From positions 1 through 26,102 of the IMG/VR virus record IMGVR_UViG_3300020001_000006: a stretch of DNA of 26,102 bases, one strand, 5' to 3'. The notes beneath the pieces are model-generated. The model was not told the DNA's origin and did no database searches. It saw nothing but the letters and a program-made list of their open reading frames with translations. Below, one piece after another: positions 6,025 to 23,619 of this stretch. The position numbers and the translations under genes are program-made. The first letter of the stretch is position 1, and every line of letters starts with the position of its first letter. The DNA is from a virus.

Positions 6025-6321
6025 ATGTCTCAGTCTAATTTTTCAAATCCGCCCTATTCCACACTCAAAAATGAATTCAAAAACATAATGCAAAAAAGCA
6101 TCTCAGATCATAAAGAATTAAGGATAGGAGCTTTTAAAGATAACTCAGAAATTTTAAGTCTTTTAGGGAAAATTAATGCCTGGGAACAATGCCTAGAAAT
6201 ATTCAACAAGTTTTGTCACATGATAGAAAATCCTCAGCCTCAGCCTCAGCCTCAGCCTCAAAATAATCCTTCTACTCCTCCCGTTTCCCAAGTTAGTGAC
6301 GGAGAAATTATTGAAGGATGA
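6025..6321 (+). CDS. Small protein with Pro-Gln repeat
   Basis: 98-aa protein of unknown function that opens the virion operon. The N-terminal two-thirds is helical (about residues 12-68); then comes a (Pro-Gln)5 run at about residues 71-80 and an acidic, disordered tail. GGAG lies 5 nt before the ATG at 6025. Its last four bases overlap the GroES-like gene (ATGA), so it may be a head-assembly partner. The PQ run comes from a six-base tandem repeat (6232-6260). Confidence 0.7.
   Translation: MSQSNFSNPPYSTLKNEFKNIMQKSISDHKELRIGAFKDNSEILSLLGKINAWEQCLEIFNKFCHMIENPQPQPQPQPQNNPSTPPVSQVSDGEIIEG
6232..6260 (+). repeat. Hexanucleotide tandem repeat (cctcag)
   Basis: Four full cctcag units and a fifth lacking its last base. 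It encodes Pro-Gln dipeptides. Loss or gain of a unit by slippage would change length by two residues without a frameshift. Confidence 0.9.
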
Positions 6322-6743
6322 AAGATCTTCCAACAAATGACTTAATAAGGGAAAAATTGGGGCCAAACCATCCTGTTCCCCTTGGGTGGGTAGCCTTGGT
6401 AGAAACTCATACTACAGGCACCCATTTTAAATCTGCGGACGGGTCAGATTCAGAATTCATTCGAGCTGATACTTCCATTGAACGTGATCAATACCATAGT
6501 TGCTTGGCACAAATTCTAATGCTTGGTGATGCGTGTTTCCAGGGAGAAAAATTCAAGTATTGGAAAATAATGCCAAAAGTTGGGGATTACGTCAAAATCA
6601 AAAAGTATGGTGGTGTATTGAATACATGGACTAATCCAGAAACAGGAAAGACCGTTCATATTCAGGAGGTGGAAGACGTATTATTACGCTTTATCATTCC
6701 TGACCCTTCTCAAAGTGTATCACATAACTTTCTAGGTAAATAA
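6318..6743 (+). CDS. GroES-like co-chaperonin
   Basis: 141-aa protein with the GroES barrel layout. 'PVPLGWVALVE' (about residues 19-29) corresponds to the first strands, followed by a long polar segment 'SADGSDSEFIRADTS' (39-53) where GroES has its mobile loop, then 'CLAQILMLG' (62-70, compare GEVLAVG), 'PKVGDYVKIKKYGGV' (86-100, compare VKVGDIVIFNDGYG) and 'EVEDVLLRFI' (117-126, compare ESDILAIVE). A longer internal loop and an N-terminal extension make it larger than bacterial GroES (about 97 aa), as is usual for phage versions. It shares ATGA with the upstream gene and lies two genes before a full GroEL, so the two probably work together on capsid or fibre folding. The call rests on pattern, not on a search. 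Confidence 0.75.
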   Translation: MKDLPTNDLIREKLGPNHPVPLGWVALVETHTTGTHFKSADGSDSEFIRADTSIERDQYHSCLAQILMLGDACFQGEKFKYWKIMPKVGDYVKIKKYGGVLNTWTNPETGKTVHIQEVEDVLLRFIIPDPSQSVSHNFLGK

Positions 6744-8467: not shown

Positions 8468-10129
8468 ATGTTACCAAAAAAAATAGCTTTCGGAATAGAA
8501 GCAAGGGATATCATTTTGCAAGGTGTTAATATCCTTGCAAATGCTGTTAAGGTAACCCTTGGGCCAAATGGTCGTAATGTCATTATAGATAATACCCATT
8601 ATCCTTCCCGAATAACTAAAGACGGCGTGTCTGTCGCTCGGGAAGTTGAACTATATAAAGAATTTGATAATACAGGCGCTAAACTATTGAAACAGGTTGC
8701 TATGAAAACCTGTAATGTCGCGGGAGATGGAACCACGACAGCAACGGTATTAGCGCAATATATCATTAATGAAGGAATAAAAAAGGTCAATGCGGGTGCA
8801 AATCCGGTAAAGGTTAAAAAGGGAATTGATTACGCAACGGAAAGAGTTGTGAATTTTTTAAGGGAAAAATCAGTCTCCATCTCAGATGACATTAAAAAAA
8901 TAAGCCACGTCGCAACTATAGCCGCAAATGGTGAAGAAGACATTGGGAATCTTGTTGCAGAGGTTTTTTCTAAAATTGGGAAAGATGGCATAGTAAGCCT
9001 GGAAGAATCTACGACAGGTAAAACGGAGATTTTATTTGTAGAAGGCTTTGAAATTGATAGCGGTTATATCTCTCCCTATTTTGTCACCAATCCTAATAAA
9101 ATGCTTTGTGAATTAGAAAATACTTATATTTTTATCTTTGATAAAAAAATATCTACCTTGCAGCCCATTCTTTCGATGCTTGAAGTTATTAAAAGGGAAA
9201 ATGCATCTTTATTGATTATTGCTGAAGATGTCGACTCAGAAGCGCTTTCCACTCTTGTCATTAATAAAATGAAACTAGGGTTTAAATGCGTTGCAATTAA
9301 GGCTTCGTCCATAAGCAAGTCGTATAATGAAAGAGTCGAATTGCTTGACGATATTTCTATTATGACTAATACAGAGATTGTTTCCGAAGATCAAGGCATG
9401 CAGCTTGATAGTGTTCGGCTTAATATGCTTGGAAAAGCAAAAAAAGTCATTGTAAGTTCCGATAAAGTAACTATCATTGACGGAATGGGGAAAGAGGAAG
9501 CAATCAAGGAGAGGATATCCTTTTTGGAAGATGAGATAGCTTCGTCTTCAGGAGAACAAAAAGGATATCTGGAAAGCCGTTTGGCAAAGCTGACAAATGG
9601 CGTAGCTATTGTAAAAGTGGGTGGAACTACCGAGTTCGAAATCTCAGAAAGAAAAGATCGCGTTGAAGATGCAATACATGCTACACGCTCTGCTCTTCAA
9701 GAAGGAATTCTACCGGGGGGCGGGATTGCTTTATTAAAAGCATCGTTTGAAAGTTTTGATAAATTCCCAAATCAAGATGTTAATATAGGTGTAGATATTC
9801 TAACGAATGCCCTCATTACTCCTTTTACACAAATTCTTTTAAATTCTGGCATAGACGAAGGAAGGATAAATATTTTAAAATTGTCTTTAAAAGATACTAG
9901 AGAAAATGATAGTTTTAATGCAGGATGGGATGCAAAAGAGGAAACTTCGGTAAATATGTTCGATGCTGGGATTATTGACCCAACAAAAGTTGTCATAACG
10001 GCGCTTAAAGATGCTTCATCAATTTCTGGGCTTATTCTTACTACAGAAAGCATCATTGTTGAAGAGAATGAACTTTCCCTCAATGACTTGCCATCAAACT
10101 CTAGCCAAATGAAAGTAAGGCTTAAATGA
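8468..10129 (+). CDS. groEL: GroEL-type chaperonin, phage-encoded
   Basis: 553-aa complete group I chaperonin. The nucleotide site is intact and in register with E. coli numbering: LGPNGRN at 31-37, DGVSVARE with Asp52 at 52-59, and GDGTTTAT with Asp87 at 86-93. RVEDAIHATR carries the Asp398 equivalent, and PGGGIALL, NAGWDAKE and IDPTKV follow. Apical residues for substrate and GroES contact are kept (GYISPYF; EALSTLVINKM). Differences are the usual GFGDRRK stretch replaced by SSISKSYNERVE and slightly longer, and the lack of the C-terminal Gly-Gly-Met tail: the protein ends SSQMKVRLK. The start is fixed by LPKKIAFG and a GGGAAAG site. Location inside the head gene cluster, with a GroES-like gene upstream, says it folds virion proteins, probably the capsid or fibres. 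It could be a bacterial copy in a prophage, but no bacterial groES-groEL pair arrangement is seen. Confidence 0.96.
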   Translation: MLPKKIAFGIEARDIILQGVNILANAVKVTLGPNGRNVIIDNTHYPSRITKDGVSVAREVELYKEFDNTGAKLLKQVAMKTCNVAGDGTTTATVLAQYIINEGIKKVNAGANPVKVKKGIDYATERVVNFLREKSVSISDDIKKISHVATIAANGEEDIGNLVAEVFSKIGKDGIVSLEESTTGKTEILFVEGFEIDSGYISPYFVTNPNKMLCELENTYIFIFDKKISTLQPILSMLEVIKRENASLLIIAEDVDSEALSTLVINKMKLGFKCVAIKASSISKSYNERVELLDDISIMTNTEIVSEDQGMQLDSVRLNMLGKAKKVIVSSDKVTIIDGMGKEEAIKERISFLEDEIASSSGEQKGYLESRLAKLTNGVAIVKVGGTTEFEISERKDRVEDAIHATRSALQEGILPGGGIALLKASFESFDKFPNQDVNIGVDILTNALITPFTQILLNSGIDEGRINILKLSLKDTRENDSFNAGWDAKEETSVNMFDAGIIDPTKVVITALKDASSISGLILTTESIIVEENELSLNDLPSNSSQMKVRLK

Positions 10130-10660: not shown

Positions 10661-10693
10661 TCCTTTAATATATTTGGTATTCTTTTTAATAAG

Positions 10694-10784
10694 TAACGCT
10701 CTCGCGTTATATCCGTCCCGCAAGGTTGACGCTCCCTGTTATTAGGTAAAGTTATTTAATAACTATTCGCTTCGTGCGCAAATT
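10694..10784 (+). promoter_or_regulatory. Duplicated hairpin element, copy A
   Basis: Untranslated stretch of about 90 nt with four successive potential hairpins. H0: TAACGC/GCGTTA (10694-10699/10704-10709). H1: 10714-10731, cgtc-cc-GCAA-gg-tt-gacg, a GNRA-type tetraloop. H2: GTTATTA/TAATAAC (10738-10744/10757-10763). H3: ttCGCttcgtGCGcaa (10766-10781). H1 with 2 flanking bases (10714-10733) is identical over 20 nt to 22868-22887, and 10766-10784 matches 22922-22940 at 18 of 19 positions. The end lies 34 nt upstream of the ATG at 10819. It may be a structured RNA leader, a processing signal or a late-gene control element. Confidence 0.7.
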
Positions 10785-10818
10785 ATTCATTCACATTTTT
10801 TATTTTTGGAGACAACAA

Positions 10819-11409
10819 ATGGCTTATGGCGTTAATGCGCCCTTGGGTCTTGTTGCAGTAAGTACGTATGGATCGACCTCCTGGTCGGGAGCATTCTGGA
10901 ATTATCAGATTACGCCTGCGTACGCAACAAACCTTTTTCAGGGCGACCTTGTTAAAATGACAAATGGACTTGTTACCATTTATGCAGCCGCAGGCACCAA
11001 TTCAGTGGGTGTTTTTTGGGGCTGTAGATATACAGATACAAATGGTTTTGTTCAATTTAGTAGAATTTGGCCAGCTTCAACGGTAGTGTTCCCAGGAACA
11101 ACGGCTATTGCAAACGTTATTACTGATCCTAATACCATATTTTCCATTCAAGCTAATGCAACGGTTACCCCCACAACCGCAAATGCTGTGAACAAAAACG
11201 CCGATGTAAGTTTTGCAACGGCAGGAAATATACGTACGGGACAATCAGGCATGGCGCTTGATACCAATACTTTTGCAACAACTGCAACATTACCTCTGCA
11301 CATCCTTGGCTTTGACACGATTCCCGGAAATGTCTCCGGAACCCCTTATGCCAATCTGCTTGTAAAACTAAATGCTACATCCACCAATGCTGGTGCAACA
11401 GGAGTTTAA
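10819..11409 (+). CDS. Capsid decoration / virion structural protein
   Basis: 196-aa, starting MAYGVNAPLGLVAVSTYGST. The opening 'APLGLVAV...GSTSWSGAFWNYQI', a central 'GVFWGCRYTDTNGFVQFSRIWPAST' and the following 'ITDPNTIFSIQANATV' and 'NKNADVSF' match a widespread phage structural family that sits next to the major capsid gene and is thought to decorate capsids. ATG at 10819 follows GGAGACAACAA. A reading frame starting at 10774 would run through the duplicated hairpin element, so the later start is preferred. The major capsid gene follows after 5 nt. Confidence 0.75.
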   Translation: MAYGVNAPLGLVAVSTYGSTSWSGAFWNYQITPAYATNLFQGDLVKMTNGLVTIYAAAGTNSVGVFWGCRYTDTNGFVQFSRIWPASTVVFPGTTAIANVITDPNTIFSIQANATVTPTTANAVNKNADVSFATAGNIRTGQSGMALDTNTFATTATLPLHILGFDTIPGNVSGTPYANLLVKLNATSTNAGATGV

Positions 11410-11414
11410 TTAAA

Positions 11415-12317
11415 ATGGCTATTATCACGTTATCAAATATTCAGGCATTGATACGCCCGGGGCTGGCGGCAATTTTCGGAGATTATTTAACCTATTCTGA
11501 TCAGTGGAAAGAAATATTTGCCCAACATGTTTCTGATAAAGCATTTGAGCTGGAAGTTGAAATGAAACTCTTGCCAGTTGCCCAACTTAAGCAAGATGGG
11601 GGGCCTGTATTTTATGGAGATATGGGACAGCAATATGTGACTTCTTATTACCACAGGAATTTTGGAATTGGATTCCAAATTACGGCAAACACAATTAGAG
11701 ATAACCTCTATAAAGATGAATGGCCCCGCTCTGCAGATGCAGGAAAGGAATCCCTTCGCCAAGCCAAAAACATTGAAGGGGCTGCGATTCTCAATAACGC
11801 ATTTAGTACCCAATTTCCTGTAAGCGATGGGCAGTCTTTATTCTCTACGACTCATCCTGTACAGGGTAGCGCGGTTCCTAATACATTTGCTGTGCCGACT
11901 CAGTTAAATGAATCGTCATTGCAAGATGCTCTTATAGGCATTCAAAGATTTATGAGCGCATCTGGTTTGCGTATTGCATTGAATTCAGAAAAGTTGATTG
12001 TTCCACCTGAGCTTCAATTTACAGCAAACGTCCTATTGGAGTCCAAGTTTAGAACATCCACAGCAAACAATGATATCTCGGCTGTTTATAACTTAAGTAG
12101 TGTTCCGATGGGATACAGGGTCAATCAATTTCTTAGTAATCCCAATGCCTGGTTCCTTTTGACGGACACAAATGGGTTCAAATACTATGAGAGAGACCCG
12201 TTGTCGATTGATATGTTCACAGACACCACGTCACGAAACCTAAACGTCAATTTTGTGGAGCGGTATTCATTCGGATGTTCTGATTGGCGTGCTGCTTACG
12301 CGTCACAAGGAGTATAA
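11415..12317 (+). CDS. Major capsid protein (HK97-fold, Mu gpT-like)
   Basis: 300-aa major head subunit. 'GDYLTYSDQWKEIFAQHVSDKAFE' leads the N-terminal region; 'TANTIRDNLYKDEWPRSADAG' and the 'KNIEGAAILNNAF' helix, 'DGQSLFSTTHPVQ' and 'KLIVPPELQFTANVLLES' then correspond to the spine helix and P-domain stretches seen in the Mu gpT-like group of HK97-fold capsid proteins. C-terminal 'FVERYSFGCSDWRAAYASQGV' is the usual ending of this group. Length is usual for the group and no delta-domain extension is seen, in keeping with a separate scaffold gene (6747-7886). GGAG precedes the start at 11 nt. Confidence 0.85.
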   Translation: MAIITLSNIQALIRPGLAAIFGDYLTYSDQWKEIFAQHVSDKAFELEVEMKLLPVAQLKQDGGPVFYGDMGQQYVTSYYHRNFGIGFQITANTIRDNLYKDEWPRSADAGKESLRQAKNIEGAAILNNAFSTQFPVSDGQSLFSTTHPVQGSAVPNTFAVPTQLNESSLQDALIGIQRFMSASGLRIALNSEKLIVPPELQFTANVLLESKFRTSTANNDISAVYNLSSVPMGYRVNQFLSNPNAWFLLTDTNGFKYYERDPLSIDMFTDTTSRNLNVNFVERYSFGCSDWRAAYASQGV

Positions 12318-15606: not shown

Positions 15607-15942
15607 ATGCTTCCAAAAGGTAAATTTGTAAACATCAATCCTTCAAATCCTGATGCTGTCGCAAGATGTGACCGCTCTGGGCAGCTATGTAATTATAACG
15701 ACCTTGTAAAGCAATACGATTATCGTGGGAATGGCCTGGTTTGGACAGGGTTATACGTCAACAAATATTTTTTGGACAAACCCAATCCTCAAGGGATGAA
15801 CCCTGTTATCAAGCCTGATCCTGTACCCCTCGAACATCCCCGTCCCTGGCAGACCCTTCAAGATACTTTGATAGATCAACCAGTACAGGACAATAAACTC
15901 CAACATGAACCCTGGGCATGGACTGGGGATAAAAATGGCTGA
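15607..15942 (+). CDS. Conserved virion protein with Cys pair
   Basis: 111-aa protein of a family common in phage structural clusters: 'CDRSGQLCNYNDLVKQYDYRG' (CxxxxxxC at about residues 21-28), then 'GNGLVWTGLYVN', then a Pro/Asp-rich 'DKPNPQGMNPVIKPDPVPL'. The aromatic and Pro-rich motifs suggest a small tail or neck part; no function is proven. AAGTAGGTAAG precedes the ATG at 15607. Its last 8 nt overlap the patatin gene. Confidence 0.7.
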   Translation: MLPKGKFVNINPSNPDAVARCDRSGQLCNYNDLVKQYDYRGNGLVWTGLYVNKYFLDKPNPQGMNPVIKPDPVPLEHPRPWQTLQDTLIDQPVQDNKLQHEPWAWTGDKNG

Positions 15943-17083
15943 TCAAAATACACACAGGATGTTAACGATAGATGGTGGAGGCTCCAGGGGTTATTTTTCT
16001 CTTCACTGGATAAAACATTTTCTTATTTTGCTAGGAGAAGACCCTGACGACCGTACCGCTATCAGAAGGAGGTTCCCTTATTTAGGAGGTACCTCTGTAG
16101 GAGCTTTGATTGCTTTAGCTTTTGCTACTGATAAGAAATCTGTTAACGAAATGATAGAGTTTTTTGAAGAACATGCCCCTTATATTTTTAGTTTAAGTTC
16201 CCTTTTCCCATCATGGCGGCCAAATAAGACTTTTAAGGATGTCCTTTTAATCGCCGGGATTCCTTTTTATCAGTCTTCGGGGCCTACAGAGAATTCGTAT
16301 GGAGCAGGTCTTTTAAAAACTTTGGTTCAGGAAATTTTTGGATCTGATACGCTGCAAGATGTCAAAACGAATGTAATAATCCCTGGCTATCAATCAGACA
16401 CCAAGACTTATGTAACTTTTTCTAATATAGCGACGAGTGGTTTTATTGGCCAGGATTTCCTTATAAGTGATATAGCATTAGCTGTATCCGCAGCCCCTGC
16501 TTACCTTCCTTCATGGACATTTGGAGGACATATTTATATAGACAGTGGCCTCTATCAAAATAATGCTGCTTTTTTTTCTTATGTTTATGCTAAAGCTTTA
16601 AACCCTACTTTTAATAGAACATGTCTCCTTTCGGTTGGGACAGGATTAGGAGAGTTAGGGTTTGACCCTTCTGGAAACCCAGGTCCCCCTTCTTTGTTCC
16701 ATGCTTCTGGTATTTCAGAAGATCAGTTTAAAACAGTTCCTGTTTATCAGGAGCTTTTATCTAAATGCCCTTCCTGTGTCCCTATTAATGCGGTTGGTAA
16801 CACAGTTGTAGATATATGCCCAGCTGAGCAAATCTATGAGTATTTTGAGATTGCGTGTGTTGGTAGCCAAGAATCCATTGCAAAGTGTTTCCAAGTTTTA
16901 TCAGACTCTTCTTTAGAGGCATTTTATTATTATAGGGCGAATGCTGTCCTAGATGTTGTTGAGAATACTGAAATTGATAATACTGAGCCGGAGTATTTTC
17001 AATATCTTGCTGACTTTGCTGAATCTATTTTTCAAAGCGATATTATCTCTATAACCAACTTTATAGGGCATTTCACAGCATGA
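15935..17083 (+). CDS. Patatin-like phospholipase
   Basis: 382-aa enzyme of the patatin family (lipid acyl hydrolase; Ser-Asp dyad). Visible sites: DGGGSRG at 13-19 (oxyanion hole), GTSVG with nucleophile Ser54, and YIDSGLYQNN with Asp203; the usual DG[GA] is DSG here. 'VSAAPAYLPSW' at about 184-194 and 'LLSVGTG' are typical of bacterial members. No signal peptide or membrane segment is seen, so it acts in the cytoplasm or is carried in the virion. ATG at 15935 follows GGGGAT and is preferred to one at 15905 that would overlap further. The last bases overlap the fibre start as ATGA. Position in the virion operon suggests a structural or injected role, such as membrane damage at entry or lysis; cytoplasmic toxin or defence is the alternative. 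Confidence 0.9.
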   Translation: MADQNTHRMLTIDGGGSRGYFSLHWIKHFLILLGEDPDDRTAIRRRFPYLGGTSVGALIALAFATDKKSVNEMIEFFEEHAPYIFSLSSLFPSWRPNKTFKDVLLIAGIPFYQSSGPTENSYGAGLLKTLVQEIFGSDTLQDVKTNVIIPGYQSDTKTYVTFSNIATSGFIGQDFLISDIALAVSAAPAYLPSWTFGGHIYIDSGLYQNNAAFFSYVYAKALNPTFNRTCLLSVGTGLGELGFDPSGNPGPPSLFHASGISEDQFKTVPVYQELLSKCPSCVPINAVGNTVVDICPAEQIYEYFEIACVGSQESIAKCFQVLSDSSLEAFYYYRANAVLDVVENTEIDNTEPEYFQYLADFAESIFQSDIISITNFIGHFTA

Positions 17084-21933: not shown

Positions 21934-22464
21934 ATGAAAAAGTTTTTTTTTCCTTTTTGTTTGTTATCATTATGTGTGAATGGAGCAGAGCGTTTAAATG
22001 AAAATTCTTTAAATGATCAACAAAAGATAAAATTATTTGATTCTATGTTGTCTAATACAGGAACATCTTATCCAATTTATTATGAAGTTATGGAATATTC
22101 TGATTTAGAAAATCCAATAATTATAAAGCATCCAGTTTTTCAAAAGACTTTAATAAAACTTGCTGCTAAAAAGTATTTTAAAGAACAAGAATATATTAGA
22201 AAACAAGAATATATTAGAAAACAAGAAGAACCAATAAGGCGAGAAGAAGAGTTTCAAAAAGAACAAAGTATTTTGGCAAAAGAACATGAAAGCCTAATGA
22301 AAGAAGAGATGATGTGGAAACAGACTATCAGAGGCCCAGAAAGCTATCTTTCAGAAAGCTATCAAAATCTTAATAGAAAAAAAGAAGAGCTACAGGGTAA
22401 GAGAAAAATACTGCATGAGAAAAGGATTGCAGAATTTAATGCTGCTAGTAAGAAAATAAATTGA
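21934..22464 (+). CDS. Exported coiled-coil accessory protein
   Basis: 176-aa with an N-terminal signal peptide (MKKFFFPFCLLSLCVNGAER, cut probable near residue 18) and a mature part that is charged and helical. Residues about 82-100 hold a six-residue tandem repeat (EYIRKQ twice) from an 18-nt duplication, and the rest is Glu/Lys-rich coiled coil to the end. It is clearly more AT-rich than the neighbouring genes and has its own promoter-like sequence. GGAG lies upstream of the start. It looks like a cargo gene expressed independently (moron), secreted to the periplasm or envelope; an envelope role in lysis is an alternative. No family is recognised. Confidence 0.7.
   Translation: MKKFFFPFCLLSLCVNGAERLNENSLNDQQKIKLFDSMLSNTGTSYPIYYEVMEYSDLENPIIIKHPVFQKTLIKLAAKKYFKEQEYIRKQEYIRKQEEPIRREEEFQKEQSILAKEHESLMKEEMMWKQTIRGPESYLSESYQNLNRKKEELQGKRKILHEKRIAEFNAASKKIN
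22185..22220 (+). repeat. 18-bp tandem duplication
   Basis: Two identical 18-nt copies (22185-22202, 22203-22220) inside the exported-protein gene, giving two EYIRKQ-type repeats in frame, followed by the start of a third copy. A recent in-frame slippage or duplication. Confidence 0.85.
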
Positions 22465-22790: not shown

Positions 22791-22822
22791 AAAGGGGTAT
22801 AATTTTATTGTACCTCTTTTTT
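22791..22822 (+). terminator. Rho-independent terminator
   Basis: Nine-bp stem aaaggggta/tacctcttt with one G-T pair, an 11-nt loop, and a run of T that ends the stem (22816-22822). It ends the transcript of the 22551-22772 gene and separates it from the next module. Confidence 0.65.
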
Positions 22823-22845
22823 CATGTTTATTTAAATCCATATAT

Positions 22846-22940
22846 TTTGTACAATAAGGATACAAATCGTCCCGCAAGGTTGACGCTATAAGGTGCCTTT
22901 CACAGGAAAACTGGTACTTTCTTCGCTTCATGCGCAAATT
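22846..22940 (+). promoter_or_regulatory. Duplicated hairpin element, copy B
   Basis: Second copy of the element at 10694-10784. H0: TTTGTA/TACAAA (22846-22851/22861-22866). H1: cgtcccGCAAggttgacg, 22868-22885, identical to copy A. H2: AAGGTGCC/GGTACTTT (22890-22897/22913-22920), with two G-T pairs. H3: ttCGCttcatGCGcaa (22922-22937), one base different from copy A and in its loop. H0 and H2 keep their place but not their sequence. It ends 37 nt before the GTG start of the adaptor gene at 22978 and just follows a terminator. Confidence 0.7.
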
Positions 22941-22977: not shown

Positions 22978-23619
22978 GTGTCATTTGTTCTTACATATAA
23001 CTCACTGGTTGAGAAAATCAAGAATGAACTGGAAAGAAAAAACGACCCCATCGTTTTGGCTTCCATGGACATGTGGATAAAAAATGCACATGAACGGATA
23101 GGCCGTGACTGTAATTCCCTACTTTTTGAAGTTTCCCTCCAAGGTTCTTTCCAAGTGGATAATTGCGTTATCCAGAAACCTAATAGATGGCAAAATACAA
23201 TAGCGTTCAATTATGGGACAGGAAACGGTTTTAATACTTACAATCCTGTTTACTTAAGGACTTATGAATTTTGCCGTGACTACTGGCCTGACACAACACA
23301 GGTTTCACTTCCCAAATTCTATGCCGATTATGTTTATGGAAGTTGGCTCATTAGCCCTACGCCTGACCAGAATTATCCATTTGAAATTGTTTACCTTGAA
23401 ACGCCACAGGTAATCGATTCCAGTTTCCAGACAAATTATTTAACTCAATTTATGCCTGAAATCCTTTTAAGGGCTACACTTATGGAAGCCATGGTCACGT
23501 TAAAAAATGATGAGCGCACACCTGTTATTGCAGATGATTATGTAAGGCTCATTGCCTCGTGGAACAATAAGAACAAACTCAGAAAATTTGATAGATACAC
23601 TACCAGGGATGCAGACTAA
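22978..23619 (+). CDS. Head-tail adaptor 2
   Basis: 213-aa. 'YNSLVEKIKNELERKNDPIVLASMDMWIKNAHERIGRDC' and 'TQFMPEILLRATLMEAMVTLKND' are the N- and C-terminal helical parts typical of phage adaptor proteins (SU10-type/gp6-like) that join portal and tail, with a beta-rich middle. It lacks the long insertion seen in the 14548-15594 protein. Start is GTG at 22978 with AAGGA 7 nt before. The fibre gene starts right after its stop. It is the first gene after the duplicated hairpin element. Confidence 0.75.
   Translation: MSFVLTYNSLVEKIKNELERKNDPIVLASMDMWIKNAHERIGRDCNSLLFEVSLQGSFQVDNCVIQKPNRWQNTIAFNYGTGNGFNTYNPVYLRTYEFCRDYWPDTTQVSLPKFYADYVYGSWLISPTPDQNYPFEIVYLETPQVIDSSFQTNYLTQFMPEILLRATLMEAMVTLKNDERTPVIADDYVRLIASWNNKNKLRKFDRYTTRDAD

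Follow-up and report, generated by a model that had tools for sequence, protein, structure and literature searches.

The 26-kb viral record analyzed here (the window) carries, at positions 10694–10784 (copy A) and 22846–22940 (copy B), two copies of a conserved structured RNA. The same four-hairpin element (hairpins H0 to H3) occurs in eleven distinct relatives, plus identical or near-duplicate records, whose major capsid proteins (MCPs) are 71–84% identical; there it lies just upstream of the gene preceding the MCP gene wherever that region was present in the record. It is a previously undescribed RNA element, best read as a new family of phage head-gene leader. We give an even chance to the interpretation that it acts in cis as a structured 5' leader on the head-gene mRNA, where its most likely role, inferred here, would be to support message stability or translation.

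Between the two copies, H1 (CGTCCCGCAAGGTTGACGCT, 10714–10733 and 22868–22887) is identical at 20 of 20 positions and H3 with its flank (TTCGCTTC[G/A]TGCGCAAATT, 10766–10784 and 22922–22940) at 18 of 19, the sole change falling within the H3 loop. When up to three mismatches are allowed, shuffled sequences yield 0.19 matches to the H1 pattern and 0.03 to the H3 pattern, versus two observed for each. Copy A ends 34 nt before the ATG at 10819 and copy B 37 nt before the GTG at 22978. H1 is built of four base pairs, a 2-nt bulge, and two closing C-G pairs beneath a GNRA loop. An initial reading made without homologues (the sequence-only reading) had described this duplication, with its loop-only change and its spacing from a gene start, and it was confirmed at both loci. 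The same reading assigned four hairpins to each copy, which holds for copy A but not fully for copy B, where H0 is probably no transcribed hairpin. This H0 (TTTGTA/TACAAA) is doubtful because a promoter-like TATATT (22841–22846) abuts it, so that the 5' arm may be untranscribed. Feature coordinates are collected in Table 1.

Table 1. Positions in the window of the two element copies and their flanking features
Feature	Position	Strand	Remarks
Extended -10 promoter-like site TGGTATTCT	10675..10683	+	Upstream of copy A; TGnTAnnnT
H0, copy A: TAACGC-TCTC-GCGTTA	10694..10709	+	Clear stem TAACGC/GCGTTA; predicted 5'-terminal hairpin
H1, copy A: CGUC-CC-GCAA-GG-UU-GACG	10714..10731	+	100% of cells paired across the 12-sequence alignment; one pair changes U-A/A-U
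H2, copy A: GTTATTAGG-TAAAGTTA-TTTAATAAC	10738..10763	+	Clear stem GTTATT(AGG)/(TTT)AATAAC; two-sided changes in homologues
H3, copy A: CGC-TTCGT-GCG	10768..10778	+	Two-sided changes at 4/4 pairs in homologues
Shine-Dalgarno GGAG	10808..10811	+	Read from sequence
First gene behind copy A	10819..11409	+	196 aa, phrog_37556, unknown function; all-beta model
Major capsid protein (Mu gpT-like, phrog_371)	11415..12317	+	Query of the search for relatives
Intrinsic terminator before copy B	22791..22824	+	13-pair stem, then T run
Promoter-like TTTTCA-16-TATATT before copy B	22819..22846	+	9/12 consensus matches, weak
H0-like inverted repeat, copy B: TTTGTA..TACAAA	22846..22866	+	Probably partly promoter; doubtful as RNA hairpin
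H1, copy B	22868..22885	+	Identical to H1 of copy A
H2, copy B: AAGGTGCC-loop of 15-GGTACTTT	22890..22920	+	8-bp stem, different from that of copy A
H3, copy B: CGC-TTCAT-GCG	22924..22934	+	Pattern match
Gene following copy B (virion or tail protein)	22978..23619	+	Orthologues in relatives lack a preceding element

A search with the MCP returned nine further phages at 77–84% identity, then more at 71–76%. We compared 13 copies, namely A and B and those of L003, L004, L005, L006, L007, L008, L011, L200, L203, L204, and L205; the element-bearing relatives are all uncultured metagenomic records, some of them fragments. The element spans about 90–130 nt. H0 varies freely in sequence and is separated from H1 by 0–4 nt, directly abutting it in most copies. 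H1 reads CGUCCC-UUCG-GGUUGACG in five relatives and CGACCC-UUCG-GGCGGUCG or CGAUCCC-UUCG-GGCUGGUCG in one subgroup; L003 has a CUCG tetraloop, and in L008 GAUG replaces GACG, giving a G-U pair. Thus H1 shows a U-A to A-U change, one added pair, a bulge that varies among UU, CG, and CU, and a tetraloop that alternates among UUCG, CUCG, and GCAA, the last in window copies A and B only. The lower stem of H2 is 5–9 bp, often with a bulged C on its 3' side; above it come AGG/CCU and a loop rich in purines. The short hairpin H3 is built of GC pairs, and AAAUCC follows it in most copies.

Outside the MCP-linked phages, scans of viral and genome contigs with the H1 pattern gave matches that look like chance and score low with covariance model R2 (below), and no prophage or host copy was recognized in them. 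A strict H1–H3 pattern had no match in viral contigs, since loop and spacing vary. Any sequence chosen for an H1-like match is bound to score high, and such sequences were left out of the counts. These include L176, L167, and the best of them, L360 (28 bits with model R2, below), which on inspection is a terminator-like UUCG hairpin in GC-rich DNA. L437/L438, with a 13.5-bit R2 match at the right place (E = 1.7), were also left out.

The homologues allow the structure to be examined independently of the window. The sequence-only reading had proposed a covariance-model search, and its element was recovered by one: model R1, seeded from eight relatives and containing no window sequence, has as its two best matches in the window exactly copies A and B (21.1 and 20.2 bits; the next match scores 7.5). 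The seed consisted of loop-trimmed sequences, since a MAFFT alignment had mis-registered H0 and H3. A second model, R2, built without copy B, scores that copy at 34.4 bits, with a rough covariance-model E-value of about 1e-6. It is this homology that supports copy B, not its folding energy, which taken alone marks copy A as moderately stable (z = -2.2) and copy B as not (z = -0.5); the mean z across the compared copies is -2.1. In a 12-sequence alignment 88% of the cells pair, and two-sided changes occur in 17 of 25 pairs, spread over all four helices, including all six pairs of H0 and 6 of the 9 of H2. There are 46 two-sided cells, compared with 16.9 in shuffled alignments and 8–12 when the partner is slid by 1–3 columns; the covariation score is 0.429, versus 0.167 after shuffling and no more than 0.129 after sliding.

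Because this alignment had been fitted to the structure, raw segments were tested separately by permutation. For both H0 and the lower H2 stem, a phage's own arms out-pair arms swapped between phages (P = 5e-5 each, the floor of 20,000 permutations). The hand-chosen H0 and H2 arms differ in all 13 copies, yet they pair at 97–99%, versus 45–48% when swapped. The suggestion that H0 and H2 are conserved in shape only is thereby borne out: the sequence-only reading had named substitutions that break their pairing as a refutation, and in the homologues the pairing is kept. That reading had likewise considered an overlapping coding frame. In the raw segments, the distance from H1 to H3 is 36–43 nt in homologues and does not change in steps of three, and among the window ORFs no long sense-direction frame covers H1; no overlapping gene, therefore, accounts for the element. 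Selection might instead act on DNA, with the inverted repeats as regulator-binding sites near the promoter. The element does adjoin a promoter motif, but G-U pairs, UUCG and GNRA loops, and pairing that survives across 13 different H0 arms all fit RNA folding and not a DNA-binding site, and we regard the DNA-level explanation as highly improbable.

The element had been described at the outset as belonging to no recognized class, and it reaches no Rfam gathering threshold in the window or in eight relatives. Low-threshold Rfam scans of four copies gave chance-level matches only (E of at least 0.22). IMPDH RNA (RF02994) was considered and rejected: it matches copy A only, at E = 2.4, with a score of 13.5 bits where the cut-off is 95.4. 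The likeness is a weak local one to H3 and tail (CGCUUCGUGyGCAAA), and the family is absent from the low-threshold matches for copy B, L004, and L006. It is hard to credit, too, that the element is a catalytic or excised RNA, be it a self-cleaving ribozyme, an sRNA, or a processing site. Window H1 (CCCGCAAGG..GACG) resembles the twister-sister core, and H2 could possibly hold an RNase III site. However, the replacement of GCAA by UUCG or CUCG in 11 of the 13 copies destroys that core, its P1 partner is absent, and ribozyme families do not appear in the low-threshold scans of the four copies.

The placement of the element suggests where it would act. A TGnTAnnnT motif ends 8–11 nt before H0 in 11 of the 13 copies, against a chance expectation of 0.9% per sequence; the head-operon mRNA therefore most likely has H0 as the hairpin at its 5' end. 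A start about 7 nt past the -10 site would place H0 1–4 nt into the transcript. On the other side, each of the 13 copies is followed by a Shine-Dalgarno (SD) sequence that begins 28–40 nt past H3. The first gene behind copy A encodes a possible head decoration protein, judging from its predicted model, whose best structural match is the outer-shell protein of Borrelia phage BB1, a weak one (E = 0.15). Six cultured relatives have the homologous gene pair 17–78 nt apart, without the leader.

Several other features of these loci deserve mention. A full-length GroEL-like chaperonin (Pfam Cpn60) is encoded at 8468–10129 of the window, and the gene order of cultured relatives would place a GroES-like gene upstream of it, at 6318–6743. 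In L004, the frame immediately before the leader has an end that looks like that of GroEL in the window, as does the one in L200 (both read by eye). A patatin-like phospholipase lies inside the virion operon (15905–17083) and matches PADLOC defense phospholipase effector profiles (E = 3.5e-36). L011 has a group I intron (Rfam RF00028, 94 bits) in its major capsid gene (L011:6266–6491).

Another conceivable reading is a switch or riboswitch, in which the pyrimidine tail AAAUCCUU after H3 would pair with the purine loop of H2, as a pseudoknot, or with the SD, depending on a ligand or condition. Most copies do have loop-tail complementarity, with some matched variation (AAGGA:UCCUU in L007, AAGA:UCUU in L008, AAAAGAG:CUCUUUU in L011, AGGAA:UUCCU in copy B). 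But own loop-tail pairing is barely better than swapped pairing (P = 0.07), and copy A has none. Moreover, the tandem hairpins present no conserved junction or binding pocket, and predicted pairing of the SD is the same with the real or a shuffled element, leaving its accessibility unchanged. We consider a switch very unlikely.

A different question is why H1 and H3 are held in sequence as well as in shape. H0, H2, and the flanks of copies A and B have diverged completely, while H1 and H3 are still identical at 38 of 39 positions, which suggests either sequence-specific recognition of H1 and H3 or gene conversion. The proposed conservation of H1 and H3 thus stands between the two copies, but for H1 it has to be qualified, as this hairpin also covaries and its GNRA loop is not conserved. 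One alternative, which we hold to be possible but rather doubtful, is that H1 and H3 form an operator: by analogy with autogenous control in other phages, a capsid, decoration, or other late protein would bind them and repress or time translation of the head operon. The near identity of these hairpins in A and B suggests one trans factor for both, and the hairpin arrays of a sister clade (below), with their near-invariant 8-nt loop at the same place, resemble protein-binding arrays. Against this, the H1 tetraloop, the usual recognition site, and the bulge are free to change, and no SD-sequestering fold was found when predicted SD pairing was compared between the real and shuffled element.

The setting of copy B bears on a further possibility. 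Here the element follows an intrinsic terminator and a weak promoter-like sequence, and the orthologue of the gene behind it sits directly behind another gene in the relatives whose upstream region was read. In whole-record searches each relative had a single element, which lay at the head operon, and only the window had two; the duplication is real, but the second copy is lineage-specific, peculiar to the window phage. Sharing of the GCAA loop by A and B alone fits duplication within the window lineage. The simplest history would be an interruption of the operon, after which a leader copy came to stand before the remainder. Between 21482 and 22772, just before the terminator, lie small genes, one of them (21934–22464) with a signal-peptide-like start; this segment is possibly inserted cargo that broke the operon.

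In principle, the element could also act on transcription. In processive antitermination, either RNA-only or factor-dependent, the nascent leader would bind RNA polymerase and allow it to pass pause sites and terminators throughout the long late operon; the put RNA of HK022 does this for early genes. A promoter-proximal position, a length of about 70–100 nt, several hairpins that include a conserved bulged stem, and one copy per transcription unit would all be in keeping with this. But a terminator followed by a separate promoter and leader at copy B would be unnecessary if copy A had made polymerase terminator-proof; in operon A, other terminator-like sites on the + strand are few, weak, and inside genes; and there are four hairpins rather than two. 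We think this mechanism unlikely. For a promoter-leader module that supplies expression to whatever lies behind it, a second copy in the one phage that has a terminator before its downstream virion genes is what would be expected.

More distant relatives place other structures at the same position. In a sister clade (L209–L270, e.g. L221:4264–4345, L217, L237; MCP 56–57% identity), 44 of 45 leaders have 2–4 short hairpins with the loop U[C/U/A]ACGUA[C/U] (octaloop T[CTA]ACGTA[CT]) on varying paired stems, and such hairpins occur nowhere else in 336 kb of the same loci. A TTGAC..TAnnnT promoter precedes 41 of these leaders. They share with our element the gene neighborhood, the promoter-proximal position, and several hairpins with varying paired stems, but differ in that the hairpins are near-identical, short UYACGUAY structures with an invariant octaloop, to which R2 gives no match. 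The self-complementary ACGU in the loop makes a kissing-loop interaction or multivalent protein binding conceivable. Since this clade has an array of its own there behind a TTGACA promoter, structured promoter-proximal leaders before head genes recur in this phage group, each with clade-specific motifs. Still other repeats were observed. About 300 nt ahead of the first head gene, the AT-rich relatives L440, L442, L444, L447, L451, L457, and L482 carry roughly three tandem units of GTTCTACGAAC..AAAATCGTAT..TGGTTT..CCTTAAAGATT. In L460 (L460:2782–2882), the leader of the head operon has two copies of a GGCGGACAGAGCCTT element 80 nt apart, and L436 has a similar element, GAGCGGACCAAGCTC.

Taken as a cis-acting leader, the element could work as follows. 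Transcription would begin just before H0, so that the transcript opens with a hairpin; the bulged, stably capped H1, the longer bulged H2, and the short GC hairpin H3 would follow, and an AU-rich linker of 28–40 nt would then run to the SD of the gene before the MCP gene. The role would most likely be high expression of the virion operon, with the 5' end shielded from decay and the ribosome landing site held in an open linker. A host or phage factor probably touches H1 and H3, and such contact is probably why their sequences are kept. The covariation, the extended -10 motif, the SD spacing with predicted SD pairing left unaltered by the element, the constant location at the head operon of each related record, and the leaderless gene pair of the cultured relatives favor the leader reading, as does the recurrence of hairpin arrays in the sister clade. 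On the other hand, a purely physical stabilizer would not need such sequence conservation in H1, and copy B, seemingly without a transcribed H0, indicates that the 5'-cap part may be dispensable. We advance more tentatively the idea of a new class of RNA regulator for late phage genes. It would be a four-hairpin leader close to the promoter, possibly with a pseudoknot between H2 loop and tail, recognized in trans through H1 and H3 and portable as a module before virion operons. Related phage clades would then use several leader types, unrelated to one another, at this one head-gene position, the element being one of them.

Most structured RNA leaders known in tailed phages come from a small number of model phages. 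The family described here adds one that is supported by covariation in uncultured phages and tied to the promoter-proximal start of the capsid operon, and the other hairpin arrays found there in sister clades suggest that phages of this group generally need to control or protect their capsid mRNA at the RNA level. In the literature searched, we found no described phage capsid leader RNA like the four-hairpin element. Three known systems nevertheless invite comparison. First, the phage T7 gene 10 leader has a 5'-terminal hairpin, an AU/U-rich enhancer, and an SD before a capsid gene, the same order as here. However, T7 forms a single short hairpin from its promoter start, whereas here four conserved, covarying hairpins span about 100 nt behind an extended -10 type motif. 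Second, autogenous mRNA operators, such as the T4 gene 32 leader and the R17/MS2 coat operator, also place leader hairpins next to a highly expressed gene for a virion or nucleic-acid-binding protein, with protein recognition possible in our case too. The element differs from them in overlapping neither SD nor start codon and in its unconserved H1 loop. Finally, the put RNAs of HK022 are about 70 nt long with two stem-loops, and putL lies just downstream of its promoter (PMC9378689). They resemble the element in their promoter-proximal position, similar size, stem-loops of which one is bulged, and the presence of two copies in one phage (PMC9378689). But put acts early, through two stem-loops and a known contact with the zinc-binding domain of RNA polymerase, whereas the element stands before late head genes with four hairpins and, at copy B, behind a terminator.
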